From contig NZ_JADALJ010000001.1 of assembly GCF_014876185.1 (NCBI RefSeq), forward strand, positions 248,001 to 312,000: 64,000 bases of DNA, read 5' to 3'. A model generated the notes under the pieces. That model searched no databases and was not told the DNA's origin. It was given only the letters and a program-made list of their open reading frames with translations. Both the position numbers and the translations under genes were made by a program. The stretch is from Rufibacter sp. LB8 (GTDB taxonomy: Bacteria > Bacteroidota > Bacteroidia > Cytophagales > Hymenobacteraceae). Of the stretch, positions 38,309 through 54,466 are shown piece after piece (the first letter of the stretch is position 1; each line of letters opens with the position of its first letter).

Positions 38309-38342
38309 GCGTTTGTTTGTTGGTTTGGTGGTAGGTTTCGGG

Positions 38343-39002
38343 TTAGGTTCTGGCGGCTTGCACCAGTTGTATGGCTTGCTGGGTCTGTTGCAGGAGGTGG
38401 TCATACTGGCGGTTAGCCAGCACATCTTTGCTGATGAGCTTGCTGCCCATGCCCACGGCACAGACGCCGGCCTTAAACCAGCCTTTCAAATTACTTTCCT
38501 CCATTTCCACGCCGCCGGTGGGCATGAACAACTGGCCTGGGAACAACTCTTTGATGGATGAAATAAACGCCGGGCCTACAATATTGGCCGGAAATACCTT
38601 GATCAAAGCTGCCCCGTTCTGCTGCGCAGTGTGAATCTCAGTAGGGGTAAAGCAACCCGGAATCCAGAGCATGCCCGCTTCTTTCACCCGTTGGCCAACT
38701 TCCGGAGACACAATGGGCGCCACGATGTAATCAGCGCCTGCCTCTAAAAAAGCCTCGGCCTCCGCTACCGTTTTGATGGTGCCAATACCCAAATGCAGGT
38801 CCTGGTGCTCTTTCAGTTCCTGCTTCAGAAACCGGAAGTTCTCTAGCGCTGCCGGGCCGCGGTTGGTGTATTCCAGGGTTCTGATGCCCGCTTTGTAGAG
38901 CGTTTTTACTATCTCCAGGCTCACCTGCGGGTCTTCATAAAAGAACAGCGGCAACAGCCCTTGGTCCAGAATGCCTTGCAAGGCTTTCTCTTTAGTTTGC
39001 AT
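38343..39002 (-). CDS. eda: 2-keto-3-deoxy-6-phosphogluconate aldolase
   Basis: Cleaves KDPG to pyruvate and glyceraldehyde 3-phosphate, the last step of uronate catabolism. The 219-residue TIM-barrel protein has RTLEYTNRGPAALENFRFLK (catalytic Glu, about 42-44), GIGTIKTVAEAEAFLEAGAD near 72, PGCFTPTEI near 115 and the Schiff-base Lys in AALIKVFPANIVGP near 131. Length fits the family. Its start overlaps the end of kdgK by 11 bp, consistent with coupled translation. Confidence 0.95.
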   Translation of the reverse strand: MQTKEKALQGILDQGLLPLFFYEDPQVSLEIVKTLYKAGIRTLEYTNRGPAALENFRFLKQELKEHQDLHLGIGTIKTVAEAEAFLEAGADYIVAPIVSPEVGQRVKEAGMLWIPGCFTPTEIHTAQQNGAALIKVFPANIVGPAFISSIKELFPGQLFMPTGGVEMEESNLKGWFKAGVCAVGMGSKLISKDVLANRQYDHLLQQTQQAIQLVQAART

Positions 39003-40011
39003 ACGTTTTCATGGTTTCTTCAATGTCAGCCACGGTGCTGGTGGTGGCGTCACTGAGGCTGAACAATTTATTGAAGGCGGCAGCAGTGGCAAATTCCAGG
39101 GTTTTCTCCGGCGAATGCTGGTGCTGGAACCCATAAATAAGGCCCGCCATGAAGCAGTCGCCGCTGCCCACTTTGTCCAGAATCTGCTCAGACACATACT
39201 CTTGGGAGATATGCAGCTGATTCCGGGTGTACAGCGTGGTGAAATACCTGATTCCCTGGCCATGGTCAAACCGGAAGGTGTTGGCGACCGTGTGGCACTT
39301 CGGGAATTGGTTTATAATGGCTTTTGAGGTCAACTGTGCGTGCTGCACCAGTTTGTCTTTGGCAATGTCTTGCACCAATTCTTCTTGCAGCGGCATGCCC
39401 AGCATTTTGTTGGCGGCCCACACGTTGCCCATGATCAGGTCACAGGAAGCGGCCAGGGCAGGCATGATATCTACCGGTTCTTTTCCGTATTTCCAGAGTT
39501 TGGCGCGGTAGTTCAAATCCAATGATATTTGTATGCCTTTGGCTTTAGCCATTGCTAGGGCTTCGGCGCAGACATCGGCTACGTTTTGGTTAATGGCCGG
39601 GCAAATGGCACTGAAATGAAACCAGCTCACACCTGCAAAAACGGCCTCCCAGTCAATATTGCCCACTTTTAAATCAGCGAAGGCAGAACCAGCCCGGTCA
39701 TAAATCACGCCGGCGTTCTTCACGTCTTTGCCTTTGGGCAGGTAGTAAATGCCCACGCGGTCGCCTTGCATGACCACCGGTTTGGTATCAATGCCTTTGG
39801 CATTCAGATAGGAGAGGAGTTCCTCTGATAAAAAATTCTCTGGCAAGGCAGTCAAATACGCCGATGGGACGCCCCACAAAGCCAAGGCGGTCGCCACGTT
39901 CAATTCCGCGCCCCCCACATAGAAGGCCAGCTTGTTTTCCTGCAGCCACTGGCCCTGCCCATCTGGACTGATGCGAAGCAACAACTCGCCAAAAGACAAA
40001 ACTTTGCCCAT
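38992..40011 (-). CDS. kdgK: 2-keto-3-deoxygluconate kinase (PfkB family)
   Basis: Phosphorylates KDG to KDPG with ATP. The 339-residue PfkB-fold protein starts MGKVLSFGELLLRISPDGQG and has FYVGGAELNVATALALWG near 31-48. The C-terminal PfkB signature EQILDKVGSGDCFMAGLIYG lies near 268-287, with the catalytic Asp in GSGD. Context between uxaC and eda makes KDG the probable substrate; other PfkB sugars are possible on sequence alone. Confidence 0.92.
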   Translation of the reverse strand: MGKVLSFGELLLRISPDGQGQWLQENKLAFYVGGAELNVATALALWGVPSAYLTALPENFLSEELLSYLNAKGIDTKPVVMQGDRVGIYYLPKGKDVKNAGVIYDRAGSAFADLKVGNIDWEAVFAGVSWFHFSAICPAINQNVADVCAEALAMAKAKGIQISLDLNYRAKLWKYGKEPVDIMPALAASCDLIMGNVWAANKMLGMPLQEELVQDIAKDKLVQHAQLTSKAIINQFPKCHTVANTFRFDHGQGIRYFTTLYTRNQLHISQEYVSEQILDKVGSGDCFMAGLIYGFQHQHSPEKTLEFATAAAFNKLFSLSDATTSTVADIEETMKTYAN

Positions 40012-40020
40012 AGTGCCTGC

Positions 40021-41418
40021 TTAGAAGTTGAAGAAGGATTTTGCGTTGTGGTAGCAGATGTTCTCCACCATTTGGCCCAGCCATTTCATCTCAGAAGCCG
40101 GTAACTGGCCGCCTTCCACGTCATTGCCCAGCATGTTGCAAAGAATTCTTCTGAAGTACTCATGGCGTGGGTAGGACAAGAAGCTGCGGCTGTCAGTGAG
40201 CATGCCCACAAAACGGCTCAACAGGCCCATGTTTGACAAGGCGTTCATCTGGCGTTCCATGCCTTCCTTCTGGTCCAGGAACCACCAAGCGGAGCCATAC
40301 TGGATCTTGCCCGGAGTACTGCCATCATTGAAGTTGCCAATCATGGTGGCGTAGAGTTCGTTCTGGCTGGGGTTGAGGTTGTAGAGAATGGTCTTGGCCA
40401 GTTGGTCTGAGTTGTCCAGCTTGTCCATGAACCGTGACAGCGGACGGGCCACGTCAAAATCACCGATGGAGTCAAAACCCGTATCTGCGCCCAACTCACG
40501 CATCATGCGGGTGTTGTTGTTGCGCAAAGCACCCAGGTGGAACTGCTGCGTCCAGTCTTTGCTGTGGTCCAGCAGGGCTAGAAACACCAACATAGCCGAT
40601 TTGAATTTCAGCACATCTGCCTTGGTCAACTCTTGGCCGTGCAGCGCTTTCCGGAAGATTCCGTTGATCTCCTCCCCGGTAAAGTCTTCGGCATAAATGG
40701 TTTCAAGGCCATGGTCAGACAGACGGCAACCGTTTTCATGGAAGAAGTCGTGGCGCTGCTTGAGGGCATCCTGCAAATCCTGGAAAGAAGCGATGGTGAT
40801 ACCAGAAGTGGCTCCTAATTTCTCCAGATACGTCAGGAAGTTGGCATCTTCAATGGCCATGGCTTTGTCTGCCCGGAACGTAGGCAACACCTTCAGTCCA
40901 AAGTTATCTTCGGCTATTTTCTGGTGGTGTTCCAGCGTGTCAATGGGATCATCTGTGGTGCAGATGACTTCCACGTTCATTTGTTTCAGAATACCGCGCA
41001 CACTGAAGGCATCTGTCTGAAGCATGGACGTGGCCGTGTCATAAATCTCGGTCGCGGTCTCAGGTTTCAAAATGGTCTCAATCCCGAAGGGACGTTTGAG
41101 TTCCATGTGCGTCCAGTGGTAAAGCGGGTTGCGCATGGTGTAGGGCACGGTCTGGGCCCACTTCTCAAACTTCTCAAAATCTGGTGCATCACCGGTGCAG
41201 AAGCGTTCTGGTATGCCGTTTGTGCGCATGGCCCGCCACTTATAATGGTCACCCTCCAGCCAGATTTGGGTTAGGTTCTCAAACTTGCGGTCATTGGCTA
41301 TGTCCTGCGCGTTGAGGTGGCAATGGTAGTCTATGATGGGCATGTGCTTGGCATGCTCATGGTACAGCGTTTTGGCTGTTCTGGTCTCTAAAAGAAAGTT
41401 CTCGTCTAAAAAGGACAT
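40021..41418 (-). CDS. uxaC: Uronate isomerase (glucuronate/galacturonate isomerase)
   Basis: Converts D-galacturonate to D-tagaturonate and D-glucuronate to D-fructuronate. The 465-residue amidohydrolase-fold enzyme begins MSFLDENFLLETRTAKTLYH and has the conserved MPIIDYHCHLNAQDIANDR (HxH, residues 27-45). WTHMELKRPFGIE follows near 121, CTTDDPIDTLEHHQKI near 157 and LTDSRSFLSYPRHEYFRRIL near 410. Length matches UxaC (about 470). It lies 9 bp upstream of kdgK. Confidence 0.96.
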   Translation of the reverse strand: MSFLDENFLLETRTAKTLYHEHAKHMPIIDYHCHLNAQDIANDRKFENLTQIWLEGDHYKWRAMRTNGIPERFCTGDAPDFEKFEKWAQTVPYTMRNPLYHWTHMELKRPFGIETILKPETATEIYDTATSMLQTDAFSVRGILKQMNVEVICTTDDPIDTLEHHQKIAEDNFGLKVLPTFRADKAMAIEDANFLTYLEKLGATSGITIASFQDLQDALKQRHDFFHENGCRLSDHGLETIYAEDFTGEEINGIFRKALHGQELTKADVLKFKSAMLVFLALLDHSKDWTQQFHLGALRNNNTRMMRELGADTGFDSIGDFDVARPLSRFMDKLDNSDQLAKTILYNLNPSQNELYATMIGNFNDGSTPGKIQYGSAWWFLDQKEGMERQMNALSNMGLLSRFVGMLTDSRSFLSYPRHEYFRRILCNMLGNDVEGGQLPASEMKWLGQMVENICYHNAKSFFNF

Positions 41419-41523: not shown

Positions 41524-42948
41524 TTAAGCAATGCGGGCTAGTTCCTGCTGCTGTAATTTCTCCAGTTCTGCAGCCACGGTTTGTTCCAGGCCGGGCACCT
41601 GGGTTAAGTCCATGTCCCAGAAGTCCTGGTTGGTCAACACGGCCTTCACGGTATCGGCGGCTGAGTTTTTCTGCCAGGCGTTTTTGAAGAACTCCAACAC
41701 TTCGGGGGTGTCATTGAGGGCAATCTGCTCGCCGTTGGTTTCGCCTTTGTAGAACAGAATCATTGCGGCCAGAGAGGTAAGCAAGCGCTGCGGCAACTGG
41801 TCTTTTCTTTTCTGGTATTCCAGCACAGACGGCAGCACGCGCACTTTGTATTTAGACACCGAGTTCAAGGCAATGGAAATCAATTCATGCTTAATGAACG
41901 GGTTCTGGAAACGCTCTATCACATCATTCGCGAACTGGTTTAGTTCTTCCGCAGATAAATCAAGGGTGGGAATGATTTCCTCAAAAATGGCTTCCTTGAT
42001 GAACGTGCCGGCAATTTCATCTTCCACGGCGTCACGCACGGTGCGCAGGCCCTGCAAGTAGGCCACCGGTACCAACGCGGTGTGCGCGCCGTTCAGGATT
42101 CTTACTTTGCGGGTGCGGTACGGCGTTAAATCATCCACAAATTTCACCTGCAGATCTGCCTGGTCTGTGGGGAACGCGGCGGCCACTGAGGCAGGCGCTT
42201 CAATCACCCATAAATGGAACGGCTCTGCCTTAACCACCAGGTTATCTTCAAAACCAATTTTCCCCTGAATCTCAGCGATGGTGTCTTTGGGGAAGCCCGG
42301 CACAATGCGGTCTACCAGCGTGTTGCAGAAAATGGTGTCCTGTTCAATCCAGGTGGTGAATTCCTGCGGCAGGTTCCAGTGTTTTGCGAATTGCAATACT
42401 GTGGTTCTTAGGTTTTCGCCGTTTTTCTCAATCAGTTCACACGGAATAATGGTCAGGGCTTTGTCTTTGGCGCCGTTGAACGTCTGGAACCGGCGGTACA
42501 GCAAGGCGGTTAGTTTACCCGGAAAGCTACCGGGCGTGGTATCTAAGCTAGCGTCAGCGGGTTCAAAGCAGATGCCAGCCTCGGTGGTGTTGGAGATGAT
42601 GAATTCCAGGTCTGGGTTTTCGCCCTGGCGCAGGTAAAATTCATAGTCAGCGTAAGGCGAATGGGCATGCGCCACGCAGGTGATCAGGCGTGTTTCCTGA
42701 GTAGCCTGCCCGCCCTGAATGCCTTCCAGTTGCACATGGTACAGGCCGTCTTGCTGGTTCACCAAATGGTAAATGCCTTTGTCAAGGGGCTGCACAATCT
42801 CCACGTTGCCGTTGAAATCGGTTTTCTCGTTCAGGATGTCAATGATCCAGTCTACAAAGCCCCGCAGAAAGTTGCCTTCCCCAAACTGAAGTACTTTGAT
42901 GGGGCGCTCTGTGGTGATTCCGGCGGTGGTTCTATTCAATGGCTGCAT
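41524..42948 (-). CDS. uxaB: Tagaturonate reductase / altronate oxidoreductase
   Basis: NADH-dependent reduction of D-tagaturonate to D-altronate, the second step of galacturonate catabolism. The 474-residue polyol dehydrogenase has VLQFGEGNFLRGFVDWIIDI (about 19-38, dinucleotide-binding), CNTLVDRIVPGFP near 210 and the family motif RKVRILNGAHTALVPVAYLQ near 285-304. Mannonate oxidoreductase (UxuB) is related, but the second motif and partnership with uxaC favour UxaB. The altronate dehydratase that should follow is not in this operon. Confidence 0.92.
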   Translation of the reverse strand: MQPLNRTTAGITTERPIKVLQFGEGNFLRGFVDWIIDILNEKTDFNGNVEIVQPLDKGIYHLVNQQDGLYHVQLEGIQGGQATQETRLITCVAHAHSPYADYEFYLRQGENPDLEFIISNTTEAGICFEPADASLDTTPGSFPGKLTALLYRRFQTFNGAKDKALTIIPCELIEKNGENLRTTVLQFAKHWNLPQEFTTWIEQDTIFCNTLVDRIVPGFPKDTIAEIQGKIGFEDNLVVKAEPFHLWVIEAPASVAAAFPTDQADLQVKFVDDLTPYRTRKVRILNGAHTALVPVAYLQGLRTVRDAVEDEIAGTFIKEAIFEEIIPTLDLSAEELNQFANDVIERFQNPFIKHELISIALNSVSKYKVRVLPSVLEYQKRKDQLPQRLLTSLAAMILFYKGETNGEQIALNDTPEVLEFFKNAWQKNSAADTVKAVLTNQDFWDMDLTQVPGLEQTVAAELEKLQQQELARIA

Positions 42949-42990: not shown

Positions 42991-43038
42991 ATTCCTGTTT
43001 TCGGGCTCATTTCTGAAAATGAGCCCGAAAACAGGAAT
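42991..43038. repeat. GTTTTCGG-family palindrome (copy 18, perfect 48 bp)
   Basis: ATTCCTGTTTTCGGGCTCAT and complement around the loop, reaching the first base of the stop codon region of the LacI-type gene (stop at 43038-43040). Confidence 0.92.
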
Positions 43039-44114
43039 TAGAAATCTATCTGTGAATGTTGCGCTGGTTCTTTGACAAGGGCTTTACCTGCTTTGAGCGA
43101 GGAGCCTCTGATAATAAGCTCCGGTTTGAGGACCGTTTTCTGGGGAACCAGTTTCTTGTCGGGCCCGCTTTTGAAATTCTCGAAGAAAAGTTCGGCGGTA
43201 ATCCGGCCCATGGTCAAACTGAATTGGTCCACGGTGGTGAGGGCGGGGTCAGAAAACGAGGTGAACGGTTCATTCCCGAAGCCGGCCAGGGCAATCTCCT
43301 GCGGTACTTTGATGTGGCGTTCTTTGAGCACCTGCAAGGCTCCCATGGCGCCGTAATCACTGGCTGAGAACACGGCATCTGGGATATTTTTCAGCTCCAA
43401 CAATTGTTCCATGCTGCTGCGGCCGTCTTCCAGCTGCAGGTTACTTTTGATAACCAGGGCTTCGTCAAAAGGGATTTCATAGTCGCGCAGGGCATCCATG
43501 TACCCCCGCAGACGTTCCTTGAAAACGCTTACTTTTTTGGGGCTGGTGAAATGCGCAATGCGGCGGCAACCTTGCCCAATGAGATGCTCCACCACTTTGT
43601 AAGCACCCAAATAATCGTCAATCATGACCTGGCTCACTTCCAACGCATCAGTGGTTCTGTCAAACAACACCAACGGAATGCCTTTCTCTTGCGGACGCTT
43701 GAAGTGGTCAAAGTTCTCGGTGTTCTTGCCAATGGAGGCGATGATGCCGTCCACGCGGGCGCTCAACAGGGCGTCTACCGTCTGCACCTCTTTTTCATAG
43801 TTGTCATACGACTGGCAGATGATCACTTTATAGTTGAGTTTGTTGGCGATTTCCTCAATACCCCGCACCACCGACGCGAAAAACGCCCGGTCGGCGGTAG
43901 GCACAATGATCCCTATGATATAGCTTTTTCCGTTCCGGAGGGCTGCGGCAATGTTGTTGGGCTGGTAGTTCAGCTGCTTGGCCGCTTTCAAGACCAGTTT
44001 TTTGGTTACTTCACTGATTCTGGGGTTGTCATTTAACGCCCGGGAAACCGTGGAAGCGGTAATGTTGAGCTTTTCAGCTATATCATGAATAGTTACCTTC
44101 GGTTTGGTTGCCAT
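43038..44114 (-). CDS. LacI-family transcriptional regulator of the pectin locus
   Basis: A 358-residue repressor. Residues 5-60 form the LacI helix-turn-helix and hinge (VTIHDIAEKLNITASTVSRA, then LNDNPRISEVTKKLVL and LNYQPNNIAAALRNG). The rest is a periplasmic-binding-protein-like sensor domain (IIGIIVPTADRAFFASVVRG, DGIIASIG, VLFDRT, SDYGAMGALQVL). It sits inside the leftward operon between kduD and uxaB. I infer that it represses both divergent operons through the sites at 45806-45823 and 46014-46031. The inducer is probably a uronate or KDG-type intermediate, but the sequence does not show which. Confidence 0.92.
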   Translation of the reverse strand: MATKPKVTIHDIAEKLNITASTVSRALNDNPRISEVTKKLVLKAAKQLNYQPNNIAAALRNGKSYIIGIIVPTADRAFFASVVRGIEEIANKLNYKVIICQSYDNYEKEVQTVDALLSARVDGIIASIGKNTENFDHFKRPQEKGIPLVLFDRTTDALEVSQVMIDDYLGAYKVVEHLIGQGCRRIAHFTSPKKVSVFKERLRGYMDALRDYEIPFDEALVIKSNLQLEDGRSSMEQLLELKNIPDAVFSASDYGAMGALQVLKERHIKVPQEIALAGFGNEPFTSFSDPALTTVDQFSLTMGRITAELFFENFKSGPDKKLVPQKTVLKPELIIRGSSLKAGKALVKEPAQHSQIDF

Positions 44115-44153: not shown

Positions 44154-44939
44154 TTATTCGTTACTAGGTTTCCCAATAGTAGCCAAAATTCCACCGTCTA
44201 CATATATAATCTGGCCATTCACGAAGTCGCTGGCCTTACTTGCTAAAAATACCGTGGTGCCGCCCAGATCTTCGGGGTTTCCCCAGCGCCCGGCCGGCGT
44301 ACGGCTGATGATGAACTCATTGAACGGATGACCGTCTACCCTGATGGGAGCCGTCTGGTCCGTGGCGAAATAGCCAGGGCCAATGCCGTTGACCTGCACG
44401 TTGTGCTTCGCCCATTCAGTGGCCAGGTTCTTGGTCAGCATTTTGAGACCTCCTTTGGCGGCGGCGTAGGCAGAAACCGTGTCGCGGCCCAGTTCAGACA
44501 TCATGGAGCAGATATTGATGATTTTGCCCGCTTTGCGCGCCACCATGAATTTGCCCACGGTTTTGGCCATGATGAAAGGTCCGGTCAAATCCACGTCCAG
44601 GACTTTCCTGAAATCGGCCACGGCCATTTCCAGCGCGGGCGTGCGTTGTATCATGCCGGCGTTGTTGATTAAGATGGCAATGGGGCCCACTTCGTTTTCA
44701 ATGCGCTGCACGTTTTCTATGGCTGCTTCCTCGTCGGTCACGTCAAACAGATAGCCCTTCACCTTCAGGCCTTCAACCGCATACTGGGCCAGGGCTTTTT
44801 CCATTTTGGCGGGCGTATTGCCATTCACCACCACCGTGGCGCCTGCTTTGCCCAACGCCGTGGCCATGGCCATGCCCAGACCGTGCGTGGCACCGGTGAC
44901 TAAGGCTACTTTCCCTGATAAGTCAAATAAGTTCAGCAT
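44154..44939 (-). CDS. kduD: 2-deoxy-D-gluconate 3-dehydrogenase (SDR)
   Basis: Reduces 3-deoxy-D-glycero-2,5-hexodiulosonate (DKII) to KDG. The 261-residue short-chain dehydrogenase has the cofactor loop VTGATHGLGMAMATALGKAG near 14-33, NNAG near 91, catalytic Ser near 144 in ICSMMSE, and YAAAKGGLKMLTKNLATEWA (Tyr-x3-Lys) near 156. It ends with YVDGGILATIG. Such proteins are also annotated as gluconate 5-dehydrogenase; the adjacent kduI, 6 bp away, favours KduD. Confidence 0.9.
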   Translation of the reverse strand: MLNLFDLSGKVALVTGATHGLGMAMATALGKAGATVVVNGNTPAKMEKALAQYAVEGLKVKGYLFDVTDEEAAIENVQRIENEVGPIAILINNAGMIQRTPALEMAVADFRKVLDVDLTGPFIMAKTVGKFMVARKAGKIINICSMMSELGRDTVSAYAAAKGGLKMLTKNLATEWAKHNVQVNGIGPGYFATDQTAPIRVDGHPFNEFIISRTPAGRWGNPEDLGGTTVFLASKASDFVNGQIIYVDGGILATIGKPSNE

Positions 44940-44945
44940 GCGTTC

Positions 44946-45785
44946 TTACTTAAGGTCCGTGATGGGGAATTTGTCCATGTCATTGTAGTCCAGGTTTTCG
45001 CCGGCCATGCCCCAGATAAAGGTGTAGCTAGACGTGCCCGCACCTGAATGGATTGACCAGGGTGGCGACAGGACCGCTTCATTGTTCTTCACCCAGATGT
45101 GGCGTGTCTCCTGCGGTTCGCCTAAGAAATGGCTCACTACCTGGTCTTCGGGTAATTCAAAGTAGAAATACGCCTCCATGCGGCGGTCATGCACGTGGGC
45201 GGGCATGGTATTCCAGACGCTGCCGGCTTTCAGTTCGGTCACGCCCATCTGCAGCTGGCACGTCTCCACCACGGAGTTGATGAGTACTTTCCGGATGGTG
45301 CGGTGGTTGGAGTTTTCCAGGGAGCCCAGTTCCACGGTTTCGGCTTCAGCCAGTGTGACTTTTTTGGTAGGGTAGGCGTGGTGGGCCGGGGCCGAATTGA
45401 AATAGAATTTGGCTTCGCCGTTTTTGGCCGGGTGAAAAATTACCTCTTTCACGCCTTTGCCCACATAAAGAGCTTCTTTGGTTGCCAGAGTAAATGTCTC
45501 GCCTTCTACGGTTACGCTAGCCTCATGCCCTACGTTGATGATGCCCAGTTCGCGGCGGTCCAAAAAGTTCTCAGACCGCAGGGTTGGGAAAGTCTCCAGT
45601 TGAACCGGGCCACCTACCGGGTTAACACCACCTACAATCAGGCGGTCATATAAGGTATAGGTTGCTTGTACCGTGCCGGGCACAAACAGATTCTCTATCA
45701 GAAAATGCTCCCGCAGTTTGGCGGTGTCATACCCTTTAAAATCTAAGGGGTGAACGGCGTGCCGCGTGGTAGAATGAACAGGCAT
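44946..45785 (-). CDS. kduI: 4-deoxy-L-threo-5-hexosulose-uronate ketol-isomerase
   Basis: Isomerises 4-deoxy-L-threo-5-hexosulose uronate (DKI), released from unsaturated pectin ends, to DKII. The 279-residue cupin has the zinc-site residues in PAHVHDRRMEAYFYFELPED near 191-210 and a late SPPWSIHSGAGTSSYTFIWG near 243-262. Length matches KduI (278). It is the first gene of the leftward catabolic operon. Its start lies 38 bp downstream of a TAAATTTG -7 box, with a candidate LacI operator between. Confidence 0.96.
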   Translation of the reverse strand: MPVHSTTRHAVHPLDFKGYDTAKLREHFLIENLFVPGTVQATYTLYDRLIVGGVNPVGGPVQLETFPTLRSENFLDRRELGIINVGHEASVTVEGETFTLATKEALYVGKGVKEVIFHPAKNGEAKFYFNSAPAHHAYPTKKVTLAEAETVELGSLENSNHRTIRKVLINSVVETCQLQMGVTELKAGSVWNTMPAHVHDRRMEAYFYFELPEDQVVSHFLGEPQETRHIWVKNNEAVLSPPWSIHSGAGTSSYTFIWGMAGENLDYNDMDKFPITDLK

Positions 45786-45805
45786 AAAGGTAATGTTTTG
45801 GGTGT

Positions 45806-45823
45806 AATCGTTTGCGCAAATTA
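45806..45823. promoter_or_regulatory. Candidate LacI-type operator, leftward promoter
   Basis: AATCGTTTGCGCAAATTA, with a 10-bp palindromic centre TTTGCGCAAA. 16 of 18 bases match the site at 46014-46031. It directly abuts the -7 box of the kduI promoter on its transcribed side, so a bound repressor would cover the transcription start. Confidence 0.65.
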
Positions 45824-45831
45824 CAAATTTA
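45824..45831 (-). promoter_or_regulatory. kduI operon -7 box
   Basis: On the minus strand the bases read TAAATTTG, an exact TAnnTTTG match. No TTTG -33 element was found 19-21 bp upstream, which may suit a regulated promoter. Confidence 0.55.
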
Positions 45832-45980
45832 TCAATCCATTCGCGTACTAAGAGGTATAAAAAAATAGACTAACCCCACTTAGCGCTTTGGTTTGATACT
45901 GCTAACTTAATTAAAATTTGTTAATAGAAACCTATTTGAGGCGCGTTATTTAGAAAATCGTTAAAAATCTGCCGATTTAT

Positions 45981-46012
45981 TTTGCGAAAGAAACCAAATA
46001 GTAGTAAATATG
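45981..46012 (+). promoter_or_regulatory. susC operon promoter
   Basis: TTTG (45981-45984), 20-bp spacer, TAAATATG (46005-46012), against consensus TTTG-N19-21-TAnnTTTG with one mismatch. Transcription is expected near 46018-46020, within the adjacent candidate operator, leaving a leader of about 72 nt to the ATG at 46092. Confidence 0.6.
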
Positions 46013-46013
46013 C

Positions 46014-46031
46014 AATCGGTTGCGCAGATTA
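46014..46031. promoter_or_regulatory. Candidate LacI-type operator, rightward promoter
   Basis: AATCGGTTGCGCAGATTA lies one base after the -7 box of the susC promoter and matches 45806-45823 at 16 of 18 positions in the same orientation. Confidence 0.65.
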
Positions 46032-46091
46032 TACCGCAATCGCTGTTCTTGCCCTACGACTCACCAAATTATCAAAAACAAAATTTTACTT

Positions 46092-49000
46092 ATGCGACAA
46101 GTAATACTTAATAAGAGCCGATGTTTGCTGGTGCTTGCTTTTTTCTTCGCTTCGGTGCTGGGGGCCTACGCCCAGGCTGTGACGGTAACCGGTAAGGTGA
46201 CCGACGGGAAAAAAGAAGGATTGCCAGGGGTGACCGTCCTGTTAAAAGGCACCACCACGGCCAACGCCACCGACGTGGATGGCAATTATTCTCTTACCCT
46301 TCCCAACGGCACCGGTACTTTGGTGTTCTCTTACATTGGCTTTGTGTCGCAGGATGTTCCTGTAAACGGTAGAACCACCATCAACGTCACCTTGGCCAGT
46401 GATGCCAAGCTGATAGATGAAGTAGTGGTGGTTGGTTACCAGACGGTGACCAGAAAAGAATTGACCAGCTCTGTTTCCTCTGTGAACGCCAAGCAACTGC
46501 AGGATATTCCGGTGAGTACGGCCGCAGAAGCGCTGGCCGGTAGACTGGCCGGGGTGCAGGTAAATACCTCAGAAGGCCAGCCGGGTGCGGAGATTACTAT
46601 TAGAGTACGGGGTGGTAACTCCATTACCCAAAGCAACGAGCCGCTTTATATAGTAGACGGAATTCAGGTGGAGAATGCCTTGTCGTTTCTTTCGCCCCAG
46701 GAGATACAAACCATAGATGTGTTGAAAGACGCAGCCTCTACTGCAATTTATGGTGCCAGAGGTTCTAACGGGGTGATTGTAATTACTACCAAAGGTGGGA
46801 AAGAGATGCCCACGCAGGTAACCTACAATGGTTTTGCCGGTGTGCGCCAGATTGTAAATAAGCTGGATGTGATGAACCCGTATGACTTTGTGCAATACCA
46901 GTACCAAGTGTATAACTACAACCAGAATGAAGAGGTTCGGAACAGCTTTAGAGACCGTTACGGTCGTTATGAAGACCTTGATATTTATAGGAACATGCCT
47001 ACCACTAACTGGCAAGACGAGGTGTTTGGGCGGGCAGCGTTCAGCCAGACACACGTGGTGGCGGTAACAGGCGGAACGAAAGCTACTTCCTTCAACTTTA
47101 CCTTGAACCACGCCGATGAAGAAGGCATTATGATCAATTCAGGGAATGTGCGCACCTTGGCTTCCCTCAAATTTGACCATAAAGTAAATGATGTGTTAAA
47201 AGTGGGTTTCACTTCACGGTACAGCCGCCAGGTTATTGAAGGGGTTGGTACTTCCAATACTGGTACCAGCGGGAATAACCGTCTACGCAACTCCGTTAGG
47301 TTCCGCCCTTTTGTGGCGCCTGGTTTTGAAGACCAAGTAGATGAATTTGACCCTGCTTATTTTGAATTGACCAACCTGACCAGTCCCGTTTTACTAGCTA
47401 ACCAGGAAGTGCGGTTTGACAGACGGAATGATATCATTTTTAACGGTTATGCAAGCATTGATCCTATCAAGAACCTTAGCTTTAAAACAGTTTTTGGTAT
47501 CAATGCGACAGACCGTAACCGGCAGGAATTTGCAGGGGTGGTAACCAGTATTGCCCGCCAGAACAATGCCCAGCCAGTGGTAACGTTGAACAGCGGTCAG
47601 CAATACACCATTACCAATTCAAATACGCTCAGCTACAAAACTAAATTTGGGGAAGATCACAGCGTCAACGCCTTGATAGGTCAGGAAATCTGGATGCGCG
47701 ATAACCAAACCGAAGGAATGCAAGTGCGTTGGTTGCCAGCTGACATTACACCAGATCAAGCGTTCGCTGGTATTCAAAAGGCCACCCCGCCAGCAGGTTT
47801 GATTCAGAGCCCCGCCACCACCAGTGAATACGGTGAAACCTTGTTTTCCTTGTTTGGTACCGTTGGCTATAACTACAAAGAGAAATACCGCGCCAATTTT
47901 GCCATTAGACGTGATGCTTCTTCGTTGTTTGCCCCTGAAGAGCGGGTAGGTTACTTTCCAACCATGTCCTTGGCGTGGCACATTGCAGATGAGCCTTTCA
48001 TGGAAGGAACCAAAGATTGGCTGAATGACTTGAAGGTGCGCTTCGGATTTGGAGCAGTAGGGAATAACCGCATTGAAGCTGACCAATGGAGATCTGTGTT
48101 TGGAGCAAGATCAGAAGAAGGATATGCTTATACAGAAGCGGTGACCCCCGGCTTTTATCCGCTTGCCTTGGCTAACAGAAGACTAAAATGGGAAACCACG
48201 ATTTCTAAAAACCTAGCCCTTGACTTCACCATTTTGAACAGCCGTTTGAATGGTAGCATTGACTTTTACGAGAACAACACCAGCGACTTGCTATTAAATG
48301 CCCAAATCCCGCAGACCAGCGGGTATACTACCCAGTTGCAAAACATTGGGGAAACCAGAAACAGAGGGGTTGAATTGCAATTGGATGGAGTGATAATGGA
48401 CAAAGGCGACTTCACTTGGAATGCCAACTTTAACATTACCACCCAGCAGAACAAGATTGTTAGCCTTGGCTTTGACACCCAGAACCAGCCGTTGAAATCT
48501 TATACTGTTTCTTCAGGTTGGATCACTGGTACTTACCAAGATTTCTTGGTAGAAGTAGGCTCTCCGGTAGGTCAGTATTATGGCTATGTCACTGATGGGT
48601 ATTATAGGTTGGAGGATTTCAATGCCACCTTCAACGCTACTACCAACGCCTGGACCTACGTATTGAAAGAAGGAATTGCCAACAGCCAAGCCATTGCCTT
48701 GGGTAACAGAGCGCCGCAACCAGGTGACTTGAAATTGAAAGACCTCACCCCAGACAACGGGTCAAATGTGATTGGCTTAGAAGACCGGACAGTGCTGGGC
48801 AATAATCAACCTAAATTCTTTGGTGGGTTCAACCAGCAGTTTACTTATAAGGGCTTTGACATGAGCTTGTTCCTGAACTTCTCTTACGGGGCAAAAGTGT
48901 ACAATGCCAATAAGATTGAGTTCACCACCCTGTATGAGCAAAAAGACAACAACATGCTCACCTTAATGAATGACCGCTGGAAATGGTATGATGATAACGG

Positions 49001-49352
49001 TTTGTTAGTGACAGACCCTACCCAATTGGCGGCCATGAACCAGAACACCAAGTACTGGACACCTCCAAGAGGGCAGTCTTTCTTGCATTCCTTCGCCATT
49101 GAAGATGGTTCTTTCCTGCGCATCTCTAACCTGACCATTGGTTATTCCTTGCCAGAGGCATTCTTGAAGAAGACCCGCGTGATTTCTAAATTTAGAGTGT
49201 ATGCTACTGTTAACAATTTGGCCACCATTACTGGTTACACTGGGTATGACCCAGAGGCAAGCACCAGACGCAATGCCCTCACACCTGGGGTTGATTATGC
49301 AGCCTATCCTAGAAGCCGGTATGTATTGGGTGGTGTAAATGTTACTTTCTAA
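46092..49352 (+). CDS. SusC/RagA-type TonB-dependent transporter
   Basis: Outer membrane transporter that, with the SusD partner, imports oligosaccharides using TonB energy. The 1086-residue protein has a signal peptide ending near AYAQ (about residue 27). A carboxypeptidase-regulatory-like domain follows (VTGKVTDGKKEGLPGVTVLL), then the plug (LIDEVVVVGYQTVTRKELTS, VNTSEGQPGAEITIRVRGGN, then LYIVDGIQ and AIYGARGSNGVIVITTKGG), then a long beta-barrel. The ATG at 46092 is chosen because 46020 lies at the predicted transcription start and the added 24 residues are not signal-like. Context gives pectin oligomers as the likely cargo. Confidence 0.95.
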   Translation: MRQVILNKSRCLLVLAFFFASVLGAYAQAVTVTGKVTDGKKEGLPGVTVLLKGTTTANATDVDGNYSLTLPNGTGTLVFSYIGFVSQDVPVNGRTTINVTLASDAKLIDEVVVVGYQTVTRKELTSSVSSVNAKQLQDIPVSTAAEALAGRLAGVQVNTSEGQPGAEITIRVRGGNSITQSNEPLYIVDGIQVENALSFLSPQEIQTIDVLKDAASTAIYGARGSNGVIVITTKGGKEMPTQVTYNGFAGVRQIVNKLDVMNPYDFVQYQYQVYNYNQNEEVRNSFRDRYGRYEDLDIYRNMPTTNWQDEVFGRAAFSQTHVVAVTGGTKATSFNFTLNHADEEGIMINSGNVRTLASLKFDHKVNDVLKVGFTSRYSRQVIEGVGTSNTGTSGNNRLRNSVRFRPFVAPGFEDQVDEFDPAYFELTNLTSPVLLANQEVRFDRRNDIIFNGYASIDPIKNLSFKTVFGINATDRNRQEFAGVVTSIARQNNAQPVVTLNSGQQYTITNSNTLSYKTKFGEDHSVNALIGQEIWMRDNQTEGMQVRWLPADITPDQAFAGIQKATPPAGLIQSPATTSEYGETLFSLFGTVGYNYKEKYRANFAIRRDASSLFAPEERVGYFPTMSLAWHIADEPFMEGTKDWLNDLKVRFGFGAVGNNRIEADQWRSVFGARSEEGYAYTEAVTPGFYPLALANRRLKWETTISKNLALDFTILNSRLNGSIDFYENNTSDLLLNAQIPQTSGYTTQLQNIGETRNRGVELQLDGVIMDKGDFTWNANFNITTQQNKIVSLGFDTQNQPLKSYTVSSGWITGTYQDFLVEVGSPVGQYYGYVTDGYYRLEDFNATFNATTNAWTYVLKEGIANSQAIALGNRAPQPGDLKLKDLTPDNGSNVIGLEDRTVLGNNQPKFFGGFNQQFTYKGFDMSLFLNFSYGAKVYNANKIEFTTLYEQKDNNMLTLMNDRWKWYDDNGLLVTDPTQLAAMNQNTKYWTPPRGQSFLHSFAIEDGSFLRISNLTIGYSLPEAFLKKTRVISKFRVYATVNNLATITGYTGYDPEASTRRNALTPGVDYAAYPRSRYVLGGVNVTF

Positions 49353-49370: not shown

Positions 49371-51263
49371 ATGAATACTAAATATAAAAAGTTTATTGTG
49401 ATGACAACTGCTTTGGCAGGGGTCATGACCTTCACAGCTTGTGAAGATTTCCTAACTGTAGAAAACGACTCCGTGCTATCGCAAGATGCGGTGTTTTCTA
49501 GTTTGTCTTATACTAACTCTGCCTTAACGGGGGTCTATAACCAACTTCCGGGTGACAACGGTTATGGAAGCCGTATTTCTACGCTGTATCCCAATGCCGC
49601 TGATGACTTCAGAATTAGCGGTGACCACAGTGCCACAGGCCGCCAAGGCATTGCCCACTATGGAGTAGCACCGGGCAACCAAGAATTGGTAGAGCCTTTC
49701 AACCAATTATACAGAGGTATTGAAAGAGCCAATATTGCTATAAAGAACATTCCGTTATCAGCGGTATACACCAGCGGTTCTGCGGCTGACCAAGCCACTA
49801 TGAGGAAGTATTTAGGTGAAGCCCTAACCTTGAGAGCCCAATTCTATTATGAACTTGTGCGTAACTGGGGAGATGTTCCTGCTCAGTTCCAACCTTCCTC
49901 AGATATCCCAGATTTGTTTATTTCTAAAACAAATCAAGATGAAATCTATGACCGCCTGTTGGCAGATTTAGCCATCGCTTCTGAACTGGTTCCTTGGAGA
50001 ACAGAGTCAGGTGATCCTACTACGCGTGTGACCAAAGCAGCGGTGAAAGGTCTTCGGGCCCGCATTGCTTTGGCAAGAGGCGGTTATGCTTTGCGCAGAG
50101 AACCAGGCCAAGTAATGGGACAGATGAAACGCACCGCCGATTACTTAACCTATTATGAAATTGCCCGCAAAGAGACAAGAGACATTATTCAAAGGGCTGA
50201 AAACGGATTGAACCCCAGCTACGAGAATGTATTCCGCAGTTTACATGGTGTCTCTAGACAAGATCCAACCAATGAATTAATTTGGGAAGTAGGTGCTTTT
50301 GGTGGTACTGCCCGCACAGATACTAAATTAGGCTATGCCAACGGCCCAAGAATTACCCAAGCCAACCAAACCTATGGGCAAGCCAATGGATTGATTGAGG
50401 CAGTACCCACCTACTTCTATGAATTTGACTCAATTGGGGATTCTAGGAGAGATGTTACGCTAGCATATCTGTCTGTTGAAACAAATAACAACAAAACACT
50501 GACCACAGCCATGGTTATGCGCGAAGGAAAGTTCAGAAAGTACTGGACCACCATTGCAGGTACTAACCAGACTTTGGGTATTAACTGGCCGCTTCTTAGG
50601 TATGCAGATATTCTATTAATGTTTGCTGAAGCTGAAAATGAATTGTCAGGCGCATCAGCAGATGCCATCTCAGCTTTGGAAGCTGTGAAAAAGAGAGCGT
50701 TCTATGATCAGCATGAAAGCAGAATACCAGTGACGCCAACCGATAAACTAGGCTTCTTTAACGCTATTGTAAAAGAACGTTTGTTAGAGTTTGGGGGTGA
50801 AGGGATTAGAAAGTATGATTTGTACCGGTGGAATAAAATTGGATCCATGATTACTGAAACCAGAGCTAAAATGAAGGATATGATGGGGCGCACTGGTCGG
50901 TATGCGAATGTGCCACAGTATGTGTATTTCAGACCGAACGTCTTGTTAGGGCGCGGTGCAACTGCCCAGCAGGAGGCCCTGGACTTTGCCTTGCTAGATG
51001 AAATTTCTGGTACTGGTGAACCCATCATTGGGAATGTGAACAAAGTCATGTATGAGCCTTCACCCACTACCGCAGATGTCACAGGTTTCACCAGAGTGAA
51101 CTGGGCACAGGTCATTACAGAGGCACATTATGATCCTTCGGCGGTCAATGGTGCTCTAAGAGCGTTCGCCAGCCAGTATGTGCCAAATAAATCAGAGGTT
51201 TTCCCAATTCCTACGGCGGCGTTGAACTCAAATTTCAGACTTAAACAAGACTACGGACATTAA
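49371..51263 (+). CDS. SusD/RagB-type surface glycan-binding lipoprotein
   Basis: Partner of the upstream SusC-like transporter, forming the lid over it. The 630-residue lipoprotein has a signal ending FTACEDFLTVEND with the lipid Cys near 24. The family's N-terminal helical region follows (FSSLSYTNSALTGVYNQLPG; YRGIERANIAIKNIP). LTLRAQFYYELVRNWGDVP is near 150, the C-terminal PLLRYADILLMFAEAENELS near 405-424 and KERLLEFGGEGIRKYDLYRW near 465-484. 18 bp after susC. Ligand inferred to be homogalacturonan fragments. Confidence 0.94.
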   Translation: MNTKYKKFIVMTTALAGVMTFTACEDFLTVENDSVLSQDAVFSSLSYTNSALTGVYNQLPGDNGYGSRISTLYPNAADDFRISGDHSATGRQGIAHYGVAPGNQELVEPFNQLYRGIERANIAIKNIPLSAVYTSGSAADQATMRKYLGEALTLRAQFYYELVRNWGDVPAQFQPSSDIPDLFISKTNQDEIYDRLLADLAIASELVPWRTESGDPTTRVTKAAVKGLRARIALARGGYALRREPGQVMGQMKRTADYLTYYEIARKETRDIIQRAENGLNPSYENVFRSLHGVSRQDPTNELIWEVGAFGGTARTDTKLGYANGPRITQANQTYGQANGLIEAVPTYFYEFDSIGDSRRDVTLAYLSVETNNNKTLTTAMVMREGKFRKYWTTIAGTNQTLGINWPLLRYADILLMFAEAENELSGASADAISALEAVKKRAFYDQHESRIPVTPTDKLGFFNAIVKERLLEFGGEGIRKYDLYRWNKIGSMITETRAKMKDMMGRTGRYANVPQYVYFRPNVLLGRGATAQQEALDFALLDEISGTGEPIIGNVNKVMYEPSPTTADVTGFTRVNWAQVITEAHYDPSAVNGALRAFASQYVPNKSEVFPIPTAALNSNFRLKQDYGH

Positions 51264-51296: not shown

Positions 51297-52913
51297 ATGA
51301 AAACAATACAATCTAAGTTTTTCAAGGTATTCTATCCGGCACTTGTCTTGATGGTGTTTGGTCTGGCATCTTCTTGTAAGGAAGATGAAGAAGATTTAGC
51401 GCCCATGCGCATGTTCCAGCCAGGAGGAGCCATCTCAGCTTCCAGTGGGGAGTCTTCTGTACGCCTTAGCTGGAAGACACCGGCCAACACAGTTGCCGGT
51501 AATGTGACTTATACTGTGGAAGTGGCCAAAGACACACTCTTTCAAACACCGGTGGTTTTCACCGGTACCACAGACACCACTTCTATTGTGATCACTGATG
51601 ATCAGATCACAGTGAAGGAAACCTATTTTGCGCGAATAAAAACCAATGGCTCAGACGCTTCTGGCGGCGAGTCAAAATGGTTAACCAGCAACCGGTTCAG
51701 CATAAGAGGGGCGCAATTATTTATTGACAATCCGGTAAAAGTGGAAGACATCACAGACAGAGGCGTTCGGTTGCGGTTTATAGGCAGAGCAGAGTTAACC
51801 AAAGTTGTTTTGACGCCTACCAGCGGTGCGGCCATTGAAGTTCTCCTGACAGACGCAGACAAAGCAGCGGGCTTTGTATTGGTAGATAACTTGGTTTCTG
51901 GCTTAAACTACCAGGCAGAGATTTTTGCAGGCACCAGAGGGCGCGGCAATACTTCCTTTAGAACCAAAGAACCGCTGTTGGGTATCATCATTGATTTGCG
52001 GGGAATTACCAATAACCCAGAAATCTTAAAAGACACGTTGCCAGATATTCCCAACGGAAGTACAGTGGTGTTGAAACGCGGACTTACTTACAATGTCTCA
52101 TCAACTATTCTCTTAGATAAGTCTGTGACCATTATAAGTGGTTCTGATCTAACAGAGCAGAGTCTGGCAACTATTTACTTTACCAGTAACTTCAACACAG
52201 TGGCTGGTTCAAATATTGACTATCTTGTTTTTAAAGATGTGAACATGTATAGCAATGATGCTACCGGAAGGTATGTCTTTAACATCAACGCGGCTTCTAC
52301 TATCAACACCATGACGTTTGACAACGTACGGGCAAGCATGTTCAGAGGCATTGTAAGATTGCAGTCACAGCCTACCACCATCACAGATTTTACTATAACC
52401 AACAGTATTCTGGACAGTTTGGGTAGCTACGGCGTGATTAACGTAGATGTAGTGACCAGTAAAGTAGAAAATATTGTCATCTCAAACACTACCATTTACA
52501 AGGCAGAGAAGGTGATATCTAGCCGCAATAACTCTACTTCTGTCTTAATTGAAAATGTGACTGTGAATGAGTCTCCCATAGCAACCCAGTACCTAGTAGA
52601 CTACTCTACCGCGGGCACCAACAATGTGACGAATGGTATCAAGATCAGAAATACCATTCTGGGAATTGGAAAGGGTGGCAGTCTGGCTATAAAAGGAGTT
52701 AGGGCTAATACCTCTACTTTGGTGGAAGCGGTAAACAGCTACAGTACGTCAGATTATGTATTGACTCCCACCAGCGGTTTTGCCATACCAGGCTTAATTG
52801 CATACCCCAAAACCTCCTTGGAATTATGGCAAGATCCTAAAAACGGAAACTTCCGGTTTAAAGACGCCAGCTTCCCGGGCAAGGCCACGGCTGGAGACCC
52901 TAGATGGAGATAA
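51297..52913 (+). CDS. Surface lipoprotein with FN3-like and beta-helix regions (DUF5123/DUF4957-like)
   Basis: A 538-residue lipoprotein: LASSCKEDEEDLAP has the lipid Cys near 27 followed by a K-E-D-E run like the Bacteroidota surface-export signal. Residues 40-130 look like a fibronectin type III domain (SVRLSWKTPANTVAGNVTYT). From about 230 the pattern of short beta-strands and Asn/Ser/Thr turns (NIDYLVFKDVNMYSNDATGR; TTITDFTITNSILDSLGSYG) suggests a right-handed beta-helix like that of pectate lyases. I recall DUF5123 and DUF4957 proteins in pectin loci. Binding of pectin at the surface is inferred. No lyase motif was recognised. Confidence 0.7.
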   Translation: MKTIQSKFFKVFYPALVLMVFGLASSCKEDEEDLAPMRMFQPGGAISASSGESSVRLSWKTPANTVAGNVTYTVEVAKDTLFQTPVVFTGTTDTTSIVITDDQITVKETYFARIKTNGSDASGGESKWLTSNRFSIRGAQLFIDNPVKVEDITDRGVRLRFIGRAELTKVVLTPTSGAAIEVLLTDADKAAGFVLVDNLVSGLNYQAEIFAGTRGRGNTSFRTKEPLLGIIIDLRGITNNPEILKDTLPDIPNGSTVVLKRGLTYNVSSTILLDKSVTIISGSDLTEQSLATIYFTSNFNTVAGSNIDYLVFKDVNMYSNDATGRYVFNINAASTINTMTFDNVRASMFRGIVRLQSQPTTITDFTITNSILDSLGSYGVINVDVVTSKVENIVISNTTIYKAEKVISSRNNSTSVLIENVTVNESPIATQYLVDYSTAGTNNVTNGIKIRNTILGIGKGGSLAIKGVRANTSTLVEAVNSYSTSDYVLTPTSGFAIPGLIAYPKTSLELWQDPKNGNFRFKDASFPGKATAGDPRWR

Positions 52914-52984
52914 GTAGTTGATGTATAAGAAAGGTGCCGCCAGCCATGGCGGTACCTGTTCTTTTTAAAGTAATCATCCCCCGC

Positions 52985-54466
52985 ATGAAAAAATTCCGTT
53001 CTATTTCCTTTCTCACTGCATTGGTGTCTTTGTCTTTATTTACCAAATGCAAAGGATCAAGTGACGAACCTAACCCTGAGCAGAAACCAGAAACGCCCAC
53101 GGCAGTGTCAGAAACGGCCGTGGCTTTTCCGGGGGCGGAAGGGTTTGGAAAGGATGCTACCGGAGGAAGGGGAGGAGCCGTAGTCTACGTGACTAACCTG
53201 AATGACAGCGGGGCCGGAAGCCTGCGCGAAGCCATTAACAGAACCGGTGCGCGCATTATCTTATTTAAAGTGTCAGGTACCATCGGTTTGAATTCTGAGC
53301 TTAAAATCAATAATGGGAATGTAACCATTGCGGGGCAAACGGCTCCCGGTGACGGCATCACCCTCAAGAATTACCCTGTGTCAGTAAACGCAGATAACGT
53401 TATCATTCGGTTTCTTAGATTCAGGATGGGAGACGGAGCGGCGCAGGAAGGAGATGCCCTGGGCGGGAGATTCCGAAAAAACATCATTGTGGACCATTGC
53501 TCCATGAGTTGGTCCACAGATGAATGCGTGTCTTTTTACGCCAATGAGAATTTCACTTTGCAGTGGAGCATCATTTCTGAAAGCCTTCGGAATTCTGTGC
53601 ATGCCAAAGAAGCCCATGGCTATGGCGGCATCTGGGGTGGGAAATTCGCGTCTTTCCATCATAACCTGATGGCGCACCATGACAGCCGAAACCCACGCTT
53701 CGGAGAAGAGGCCGGCAAAGCCTATGCCTTGACAGATTTGGTAGACATGCGCAACAACGTTATCTACAACTGGGGCAACAACAGCACCTATGGCGGCGAA
53801 GCCATGAACATCAACATCATCAACAATTATTACAAGCCAGGGCCTGCCTCCATTAAACCTGACCGGATTTTCTCTCCAGACAAAAACAAGAACGTTGGCA
53901 CGGAAGTGTATGACATGTGGGGCAAGTTTTACATTGCAGGCAACATTGTAGATGGACGCACAAATCCCACTTCTGACAATTGGACGTATGGCGTTTTAAA
54001 CCAGTTCCATGGCAGCTATGGCACGGTGTCTGCAGCAGACAAAGCCAATATGAGATTAGCCAGCCCCCATACCAAGGGAGATCCTAACAACTTTGTTACC
54101 ACACATTCGGCGCAAGACGCTTATACCCAGGTGCTGGCGTGGGCAGGTGCTTCTTTGAAACGTGATGCCGTTGATACCAGGGTAATTGGAAACGTGCAAC
54201 AGAAATCGTTCACGGCGCCAGGTTCAAAAGGTAGCACAAACGGCATTATTGACTCGCAGCAAGACGTGGGCGGGTGGCCAGAATTAGCCTCTTTACCGGC
54301 ACCGGTAGACACCGACAATGACGGCATGCCAGATGAATGGGAAGTCGCTCAAAAGCTTGACCCCAAAGTGGCCCAGCCCAACGGCAAGCACCTGAGCACT
54401 GGCTATGACAACGTGGAAGTGTACATCAACAGTCTGGTGAAACACATTACCCAAGGTCAGAAATAA
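52985..54466 (+). CDS. Pectate lyase, PL1 family (first copy)
   Basis: Cleaves polygalacturonate by beta-elimination. The 493-residue protein has an N-terminal signal with Cys near 21 (LFTKCKGSSDEP), so it may be a lipoprotein though the lipobox is weak. PL1 hallmarks are AFPGAEGFGKDATGGRGGAV near 46, VTNLNDSGAGSLREAINRTG, IIVDHCSMSWSTDECVSFYA near 165 (metal and substrate region) and GYGGIWGGKFASFHHNLMAH near 212. A DTDNDGMPDEWE calcium-type loop is near 442. Start 52985 is used because the 17 residues upstream precede the hydrophobic signal. Confidence 0.92.
   Translation: MKKFRSISFLTALVSLSLFTKCKGSSDEPNPEQKPETPTAVSETAVAFPGAEGFGKDATGGRGGAVVYVTNLNDSGAGSLREAINRTGARIILFKVSGTIGLNSELKINNGNVTIAGQTAPGDGITLKNYPVSVNADNVIIRFLRFRMGDGAAQEGDALGGRFRKNIIVDHCSMSWSTDECVSFYANENFTLQWSIISESLRNSVHAKEAHGYGGIWGGKFASFHHNLMAHHDSRNPRFGEEAGKAYALTDLVDMRNNVIYNWGNNSTYGGEAMNINIINNYYKPGPASIKPDRIFSPDKNKNVGTEVYDMWGKFYIAGNIVDGRTNPTSDNWTYGVLNQFHGSYGTVSAADKANMRLASPHTKGDPNNFVTTHSAQDAYTQVLAWAGASLKRDAVDTRVIGNVQQKSFTAPGSKGSTNGIIDSQQDVGGWPELASLPAPVDTDNDGMPDEWEVAQKLDPKVAQPNGKHLSTGYDNVEVYINSLVKHITQGQK

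Follow-up and report, generated by a model that had tools for sequence, protein, structure and literature searches.

The divergent pectin gene clusters

The window (the whole stretch of DNA that was analysed, 64,000 nucleotides long) corresponds to C1:248001-312000 of the ~4.75-Mb genome of Rufibacter sp. LB8. It carries a catabolic gene cluster on the minus strand, starting with kduI, and an importer/lyase gene cluster on the plus strand, starting with susC. The annotated genes are as follows.

36911..38335, minus: MFS transporter, exuT-like by position (Pfam MFS_1; start codon unsettled)
38343..39002, minus: kdgA/eda-like KDPG aldolase (Pfam Aldolase PF01081; below NCBIfam cut-offs)
38992..40011, minus: kdgK-like PfkB sugar kinase (Pfam PfkB; below NCBIfam cut-offs)
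40021..41418, minus: uxaC, uronate isomerase (NCBIfam PRK02925 above cut-off; Pfam UxaC)
41524..42948, minus: uxaB, tagaturonate reductase (NCBIfam PRK03643 above cut-off)
43038..44114, minus: LacI/GalR-family regulator, 358 aa (Pfam LacI HTH, 2.7e-15; Peripla_BP_1/3)
44154..44939, minus: kduD-like SDR dehydrogenase (NCBIfam gluconate 5-dehydrogenase PRK07097 above cut-off)
44946..45785, minus: kduI, 5-dehydro-4-deoxy-D-glucuronate isomerase, at the head of the catabolic operon (NCBIfam NF002091 above cut-off)
46092..49352, plus: SusC-like TonB-dependent receptor, at the head of the importer/lyase operon (Pfam Plug, CarbopepD_reg_2)
49371..51263, plus: SusD-like protein (Pfam SusD_RagB)
51297..52913, plus: SusE-like protein with DUF5123 (Pfam DUF5123 above cut-off; SusE at cut-off)
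52976..54466, plus: pectate lyase (phmmer to PDB 9buj pectate lyase, 2.7e-72)
54596..55882, plus: DUF4861 protein (Pfam)
56003..57385, plus: second pectate lyase (phmmer to PDB 9buj, 1.3e-86)
57399..58340, plus: pectinesterase (Pfam Pectinesterase, 5.2e-84)

The regulator has the architecture of the LacI/GalR family, i.e., a PF00356 HTH and a PF00532/PF13377 sensor, all above cut-offs, and it stays below every NCBIfam cut-off among its matches. The gaps between kduI and kduD and between kduD and lacI are only 6 and 39 bp, and from this spacing we infer that kduI-kduD-lacI, with lacI in third place, form one operon. The assignment of the gene named kduD here (44154-44939) is tentative as to its exact substrate: it passed PRK07097 and missed the KduD cut-off (246 bits against TIGR01832). 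The first lyase (52976..54466) matched no Pfam lyase family and the second (56003..57385) had no Pfam match.

Two predicted operators between kduI and susC

The preliminary description had pointed out two similar 18-mers in the kduI/susC interval, and direct sequence comparison confirmed that AATCGTTTGCGCAAATTA (45806-45823) and AATCGGTTGCGCAGATTA (46014-46031) mismatch at only 2/18 positions. Allowing up to three mismatches, a merged pattern of the two has 3 matches in the window versus 0.19 on average over 100 dinucleotide-shuffled sequences, an enrichment that is partly circular because the pattern was built from both sites. In the whole genome, the 18-mer at three mismatches is not enriched (9 matches versus 11 for the backward control) and is therefore a poor probe; conservation is a better test of the sites than a genome count of the 18-mer. 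According to the comparison with relatives (see below), the sites are CpG-centred palindromes of the LacI type, GYGYAAHC/GDTTRCRY (the slash marks the centre), and they are predicted to be operators:

45802..45817: operator 1 (kduI side), GTGTAATC/GTTTGCGC, centre 45809/45810, exact match to GYGYAAHCGDTTRCRY
46010..46025: operator 2 (susC side), ATGCAATC/GGTTGCGC, centre 46017/46018, exact minus-strand match to the same pattern

Operator 2 is located 208 bp from operator 1. The 18-mers of the preliminary description are centred 5 bp away from the palindromes. At operator 1, L114 and L115 (Pontibacter aydingkolensis and an uncultured relative) have GTGTAATC/GTTTGC[GA]C, whereas G[CT]GCAA.C/G[AT]TTAC is found, in the same orientation, at most other loci; the unlike half-sites are thus swapped about the CG, which places the centre at 45809/45810. 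Sites at other targets are near or fully perfect palindromes about the same centre (e.g. GCGCAATC/GATTGCAC and GCGCAATC/GATTGCGC, the latter a perfect 16-bp palindrome present in G001, G005 and G010). The swap and these palindromic sites rule out the 18-mer as the operator, and they equally rule out GCGC as the centre, as do the bases to the right of GCGCA, which vary at operator 2. The form agrees with that of LacI/GalR operators, which are mostly even palindromes with a central CG according to section 9 of PMC4052901. The loci with half-swapped operators (L114:8278 and L115:8272) share the 239-bp spacing of the P. indicus group, their neighbour in the LacI tree.

Both operators lie at or next to promoter-like boxes:

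45816..45823, minus: candidate kduI -7 box TAATTTGC (TAnnTTGY type), reaching inside operator 1
45824..45831, minus: TAAATTTG (sigma-A type TAnnTTTG), the -7 box of the preliminary description
45981..45984, plus: candidate susC -33 box TTTG, 20 bp before the -7 box (a TTTTG block in the genus alignment)
46005..46012, plus: susC -7 box TAAATATG, overlapping operator 2 (identical in 13/13 aligned sequences)

The two -7 boxes proposed earlier, TAAATTTG on the minus strand and TAAATATG on the plus strand, are both present, and on the kduI side the box could be TAATTTGC instead. TAAATTTG is replaced by TAAATTCG in 3/13 aligned sequences (L041, L043 and L048), and it may still be the kduI -7 box. 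In 35/46 de-replicated loci a TA is found 14-13 bp before the centre of operator 1 and, together with the TTGC of the operator, makes up TAnnTTGY, where only the TA is independent evidence for a box because the operator also requires TTGC. At uxaA (see below), the box TATATTGC or TATCTTGC is found at the same offset in 14/14 genomes, and the kduI and uxaA operators may thus each contain part of their own -7 box. On the susC side, the consensus of 39 de-replicated loci is TAATATG at 12-6 bp before the centre of operator 2, preceded by a T-rich, TTTG-like block (an exact TTTG starts 37 or 36 bp before the centre in 19/39 loci). The Flavobacterium psychrophilum boxes described in PMC9723704 lie at -12 to -5 and read TAnnTTTG (sigma A) or TAnnTTGY (SM5, alternative sigma factor). 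By this box rule, transcription is predicted to start no more than a few bases from the centre of each operator, and with either kduI box the operator is predicted to cover the start or the first bases after it. Some caution applies to the TAnnTTGY box, given its resemblance to this SM5 motif and the alternative sigma factor assigned to it.

Conservation of the operator pair

An ortholog of the LacI regulator is found in 14/16 genomes of the genus (88-100% identity, the genome of the window included); the remaining two have LacI matches near 48% only. Thirteen of the 14 LacI-bearing genomes have a kduI/susC interval of 306-311 bp, in which the two sites are 207-209 bp apart. An alignment of these 13 intervals (excluding L050, from G008, with its long interval; L053 and L054, which have no ortholog, are outside the interval set) keeps both operators throughout: operator 1 reads TGTAATCGnTTGCGCA in all 13, where n stands for T in 12 sequences and for G in L049, and operator 2 is identical in all. 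The long invariant blocks of the alignment are the two operators and the adjoining promoter-like boxes, and the DNA between the operators has a mean pairwise identity of 56% with 0.3 gap columns per pair. The 14th genome, G008, has a longer interval (~1.08 kb; L100:7316-8292) with four sites, arranged as two pairs at 210 and 207 bp with one weaker member in each. This interval looks as if the regulatory region had been duplicated.

Other elements are also seen in these intervals. At 45903-45923 of the window, between the operators, lies an inverted-repeat-like block, TAACTTAATTAAAATTTGTTA, with partial conservation in the genus (L041 has TAACATAATAAAAATATGTTA); it could be bound by another regulator or be part of the promoter as an AT-rich element. 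Several Pontibacter genomes (L081, L082, L083, L085 and L088-L090) have a GTAAGTGnTTAATCA-like element downstream of operator 2 and, upstream, a similar one that reads GAGTAAGTnCT; it is possibly the site of another factor, and it is not evident in the Rufibacter alignment.

For a wider survey we used a 16-bp matrix trained on Rufibacter and Pontibacter sites and then made symmetric. Out of 80 named loci, 61 were scanned (L093-L153; the other 19, L154-L172, have 31-42% identity), of which L150 and L151 (49-51% identity) were taken as paralogs. An operon-proximal site was found for 58/59 of the LacI orthologs (identity at least 65%), the exception being L152, which has no site at kduI. A second match scoring at least 11 lies within 600 bp in 56 of the 58 site-bearing orthologs; the remaining two have a second site 411 and 422 bp from the first. 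The named loci partly overlap, on the same contigs, with the loci of the G-numbered genomes and are not independent samples.

The second set contains 60 loci of another family of the order, hand-picked from 91 genomes with a match so as to cover all 25 genera; some of its genomes are in common with the named-locus set. The preliminary description would have been contradicted by sites that are not conserved in orthologous divergent regions; besides the 13/14 LacI-bearing genomes of the genus, the pair is kept in 55 of these 60 loci, as at least two matches scoring at least 12 upstream of the LacI operon. The scan gave no match at this score in L257, L288, L304 and L305, and one in L262. In the 276 kb of the 60 loci there are 119 matches scoring at least 14, versus 0.6 ± 0.9 for 40 column-shuffled matrices.

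Other sites in the genome and the genus

The pattern GYGYAAHCGDTTRCRY, derived from the sites of relatives, is found exactly at five places in the LB8 genome, the pair included. One (C1:324772) is just upstream of uxaA (altronate dehydratase), the galacturonate step missing from the kduI operon. Another (C1:79422) is upstream of a T9SS-sorted pectate lyase, and the last (C1:2089901) precedes the gene of a PL1 lyase that carries CBM77; a second, weaker site lies 100 bp from this one. Sites with one mismatch precede a pectinesterase (C1:4485682) and a T9SS-sorted protein adjoining GH28 and GDSL genes (C1:315409), for which the searches showed no function; both are weaker claims. Matches with two mismatches were discarded as noise (114/121 versus 206/222 for the backward control).

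Exact matches to GYGCAAHCGDTTRCRY number 4-8 in each of the 14 LacI-bearing genomes of the genus (both strands counted), and its backward control has 0-2 per genome. uxaA adjoins a site in all 13 of the other LacI-bearing genomes, i.e., 14/14 with LB8. The search upstream of uxaA and other pectin genes proposed in the preliminary description was thus positive with the corrected palindrome and not with the 18-mer. Among 34 stretches of the genus covering sites outside the main pair, other neighbours include lyases like those of the window (3 stretches), SusC-like receptors (5) and a glyoxalase-like gene (5). Ten further neighbours were scanned and include five esterase-like proteins, one GH95, one glyoxalase and one patatin-like protein beyond the glyoxalase, as well as two without an evident pectin role (a fasciclin protein in L236 and a UvdE-like protein in L252).

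The glyoxalase-like protein has 132 residues, starts 101-154 bp from the operator in five genomes (L224:3228, L230:3215, L241:2375, L243:2880 and L250:2282) and shares 78-92% mutual identity; it is a possible unrecognised member of the pectin regulon.

Natural loss of the regulator

The two genomes of the genus without the LacI ortholog, G007 and G013, have 1 and 0 exact sites, respectively, versus 4-8 in the other 14. G007 is a natural lacI loss: its lacI remnant matches residues 268-341 only and its uxaB remnant residues 431-472, whereas kduI, kduD, uxaC, kdgK, kdgA and the transporter are retained. The sole exact operator left in G007 is the one at kduI, and no susC match was found within the 18.5 kb read. 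G013 has neither a LacI ortholog nor an exact site. uxaA was not found in either genome, in a search that had no positive control. The collapsed lacI-uxaB region of G007 spans L254:5664-7988, and the kduI operator beside it is intact.

LacI paralogs, one with its own pair of palindromes

The LB8 genome encodes at least three LacI paralogs at 45-48% identity. One of them (C1:2644525) adjoins a SusC-length gene and a SusD gene, and has its own pair of palindromes, ACGTAATC/GATTACGT and ACGTAATC/GATTACAT (together ACGTAATC/GATTAC[GA]T), at C1:2644289 and 2644506 (L057:7690-7922), 217 bp apart. A relative of this paralog in G011 has two sites 205 bp apart (L246), namely the first palindrome and a mixed one, GCGCAATC/GATTACGT. 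The mixed site matches the pectin pattern exactly, so that cross-binding is possible and the specificities overlap. Paired operators may be a habit of these LacI regulators, with the outer bases differing.

Proposed mechanism and alternative explanations

The preliminary description held that the LacI-type protein represses the importer/lyase and the catabolic operons together, which conservation and the regulon support, with the operator centre and limits corrected as above. Judging from the sequence comparisons, the LacI protein encoded at 43038-44114 is very probably a pectin/galacturonate repressor acting via both predicted operators. In the scheme that we infer (binding, repression, inducer, operon structure and start sites alike), a LacI dimer would, without inducer, sit on each operator over the -7 box and the start site, and so would block initiation of the kduI-kduD-lacI-uxaB-uxaC-kdgK-kdgA-transporter operon on one side and of the susC-susD-lyase operon on the other. 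The protein would likewise shut off uxaA and both distant pectate lyase genes, and probably a pectinesterase gene as well. A pectin-breakdown intermediate would release it; our guess is 2-keto-3-deoxygluconate, since the saturated and unsaturated branches meet there, or a sugar acid of the galacturonate branch. Since lacI is third in kduI-kduD-lacI, it would, if this is one transcript, be under its own control, and LacI would limit its own level. The overlap of the operators with -7-like boxes and predicted starts makes a block of initiation likely, and repression is the sign deduced from it; the effect could be activation instead.

Several other readings of the pair were considered. Chance similarity or common ancestry of the two promoters, with no operator at all, would fit with the shortness of each 18-mer and its lack of genome-wide enrichment at three mismatches, but is contradicted by the conservation, the targets, the co-loss and the shuffled controls, and its probability is negligible. 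Alternatively, the operators may be real and read by a LacI paralog or another regulator, the local lacI being a passenger. Paralogs with similar DNA-binding helices are indeed present, and the paralog site in G011 has one half-site in common with the pectin operators. However, the sites accompany this ortholog in 14/14 genomes of the genus and are all but gone in the two LacI-less genomes, though both keep paralogs, and the paralog pair of the LB8 genome differs in its outer bases (ACGTAA versus GYGCAA), so we regard a passenger role as very unlikely.

Granting the local LacI, the question is whether the two operators act jointly. We consider it likely that each serves its own promoter only, the plain form of the repressor reading: each lies across the -7-like box of that promoter, the single operator at uxaA is arranged in the same way, and lone sites are found at the distant targets. 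Such independent action by itself leaves the constant length between the operators unexplained, for which other bound factors or promoter elements may account. A repression loop, in which LacI on both operators would bridge the 208 bp and shut both promoters as one unit, would account for this spacing (208 bp, sd 0.4 bp, in 12 genomes of the genus at 56% identity, compared with an sd of 14.7 for the similar-sized uxaB-uxaC gap), and the other pairs in the genus are spaced 207-210 bp; yet the susC leader is nearly as constant (81, sd 0.8), and constant spacing was rejected as proof of a loop for this reason. Six Pontibacter loci have 239 bp, i.e., 31 bp more, but lie side by side in the tree and may reflect one event, and genera with spacings of 112, 119 and 140 bp exist. 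For helical phase, 29 lineages, hand-drawn after the spacings were known and including related genera that share values, give a Rayleigh p of ~0.018 at 10.5 bp (0.066 after the repeat scan); 26 genera give p ~0.001 at 11 bp (0.0115 after scanning 10-11), 11 bp per turn being the helical repeat that PMC8501960 reports for E. coli Lac loops, and the 24 genera of one family alone give 0.054 after scanning. With 11 edge-disjoint pairs on the LacI tree, however, the phase is not significant (p = 0.15 at 10.5 and 0.22 at 11), and helical phasing is not claimed. L150, L151 and L152 were omitted from the named-locus spacing set, L116 (ambiguous partner) from the tree test and g136 from the genus phase test. 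Also against a loop, the local sequence alignment with the Lac repressor of E. coli extends no further than query residue 313 (chain 307/360), and orthologs in the genus and family match only to residues 341-353, so that a Lac-type tetramer tail is not seen. On balance we consider a loop improbable. If true, it would switch pectin import and depolymerisation together with catabolism as one, selection would keep the spacing (208 bp in Rufibacter, 239 bp in some Pontibacter), and a repression loop would be conserved across the Cytophagales with a regulator that has no visible Lac-type tetramer tail. The natural spacings of operator pairs, from 112 to 239 bp, make the looping hypothesis testable.

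Returning to the repressor reading, a single LacI-type switch probably governs the import and the breakdown of pectin jointly. With these results, a pectin regulator found again and again in Rufibacter, Pontibacter, Belliella, Algoriphagus, Chryseolinea, Fulvivirga and relatives gains an operator motif and a regulon, and the predicted site allows prediction of pectin genes in Cytophagales genomes.

Comparison with known systems

The closest parallels are KdgR (BT0487), UxaR (BT0824) and UxuR (BT1434) of Bacteroides, described as LacI-family uronate regulators in PMC3878776 and PMC4052901. As here, they come from the same phylum, belong to the LacI family, have uronate catabolic targets (here the kduI operon with uxaB and uxaC, and uxaA) and were deduced by comparative genomics. 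Compared by description, the system reported here differs in having sites also at an outer-membrane importer and secreted lyases, in having lacI inside the operon, and in its host, a member of the Cytophagales. For Bacteroides thetaiotaomicron, PMC3878776 describes hybrid two-component systems for rhamnogalacturonan loci and separate LacI proteins for uronates; our results suggest that here a single LacI protein links the SusC/SusD importer with the secreted lyases and with catabolism in the cytoplasm. No description of this regulon was found in the open-access literature searched.

The best PDB matches of the regulator include chains of CcpA and PurR, and both proteins share with it the HTH, the periplasmic-binding-protein-like sensor and the even, CG-centred palindrome; unlike them, it reaches no NCBIfam cut-off and by that test is none of the named regulators. 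The Lac system of E. coli likewise uses LacI-family operators in pairs, at distances on the order of 100-400 bp, whereas here there are two divergent promoters, each with its own operator, a tetramer tail is not seen and the loop is hypothetical. The enterobacterial KdgR governs a similar pectin regulon, with kduI, kduD and lyases, and belongs to the IclR family, which is unrelated to the regulator described here. The kind of system is known, and the regulon, to judge from the literature searched, is new.
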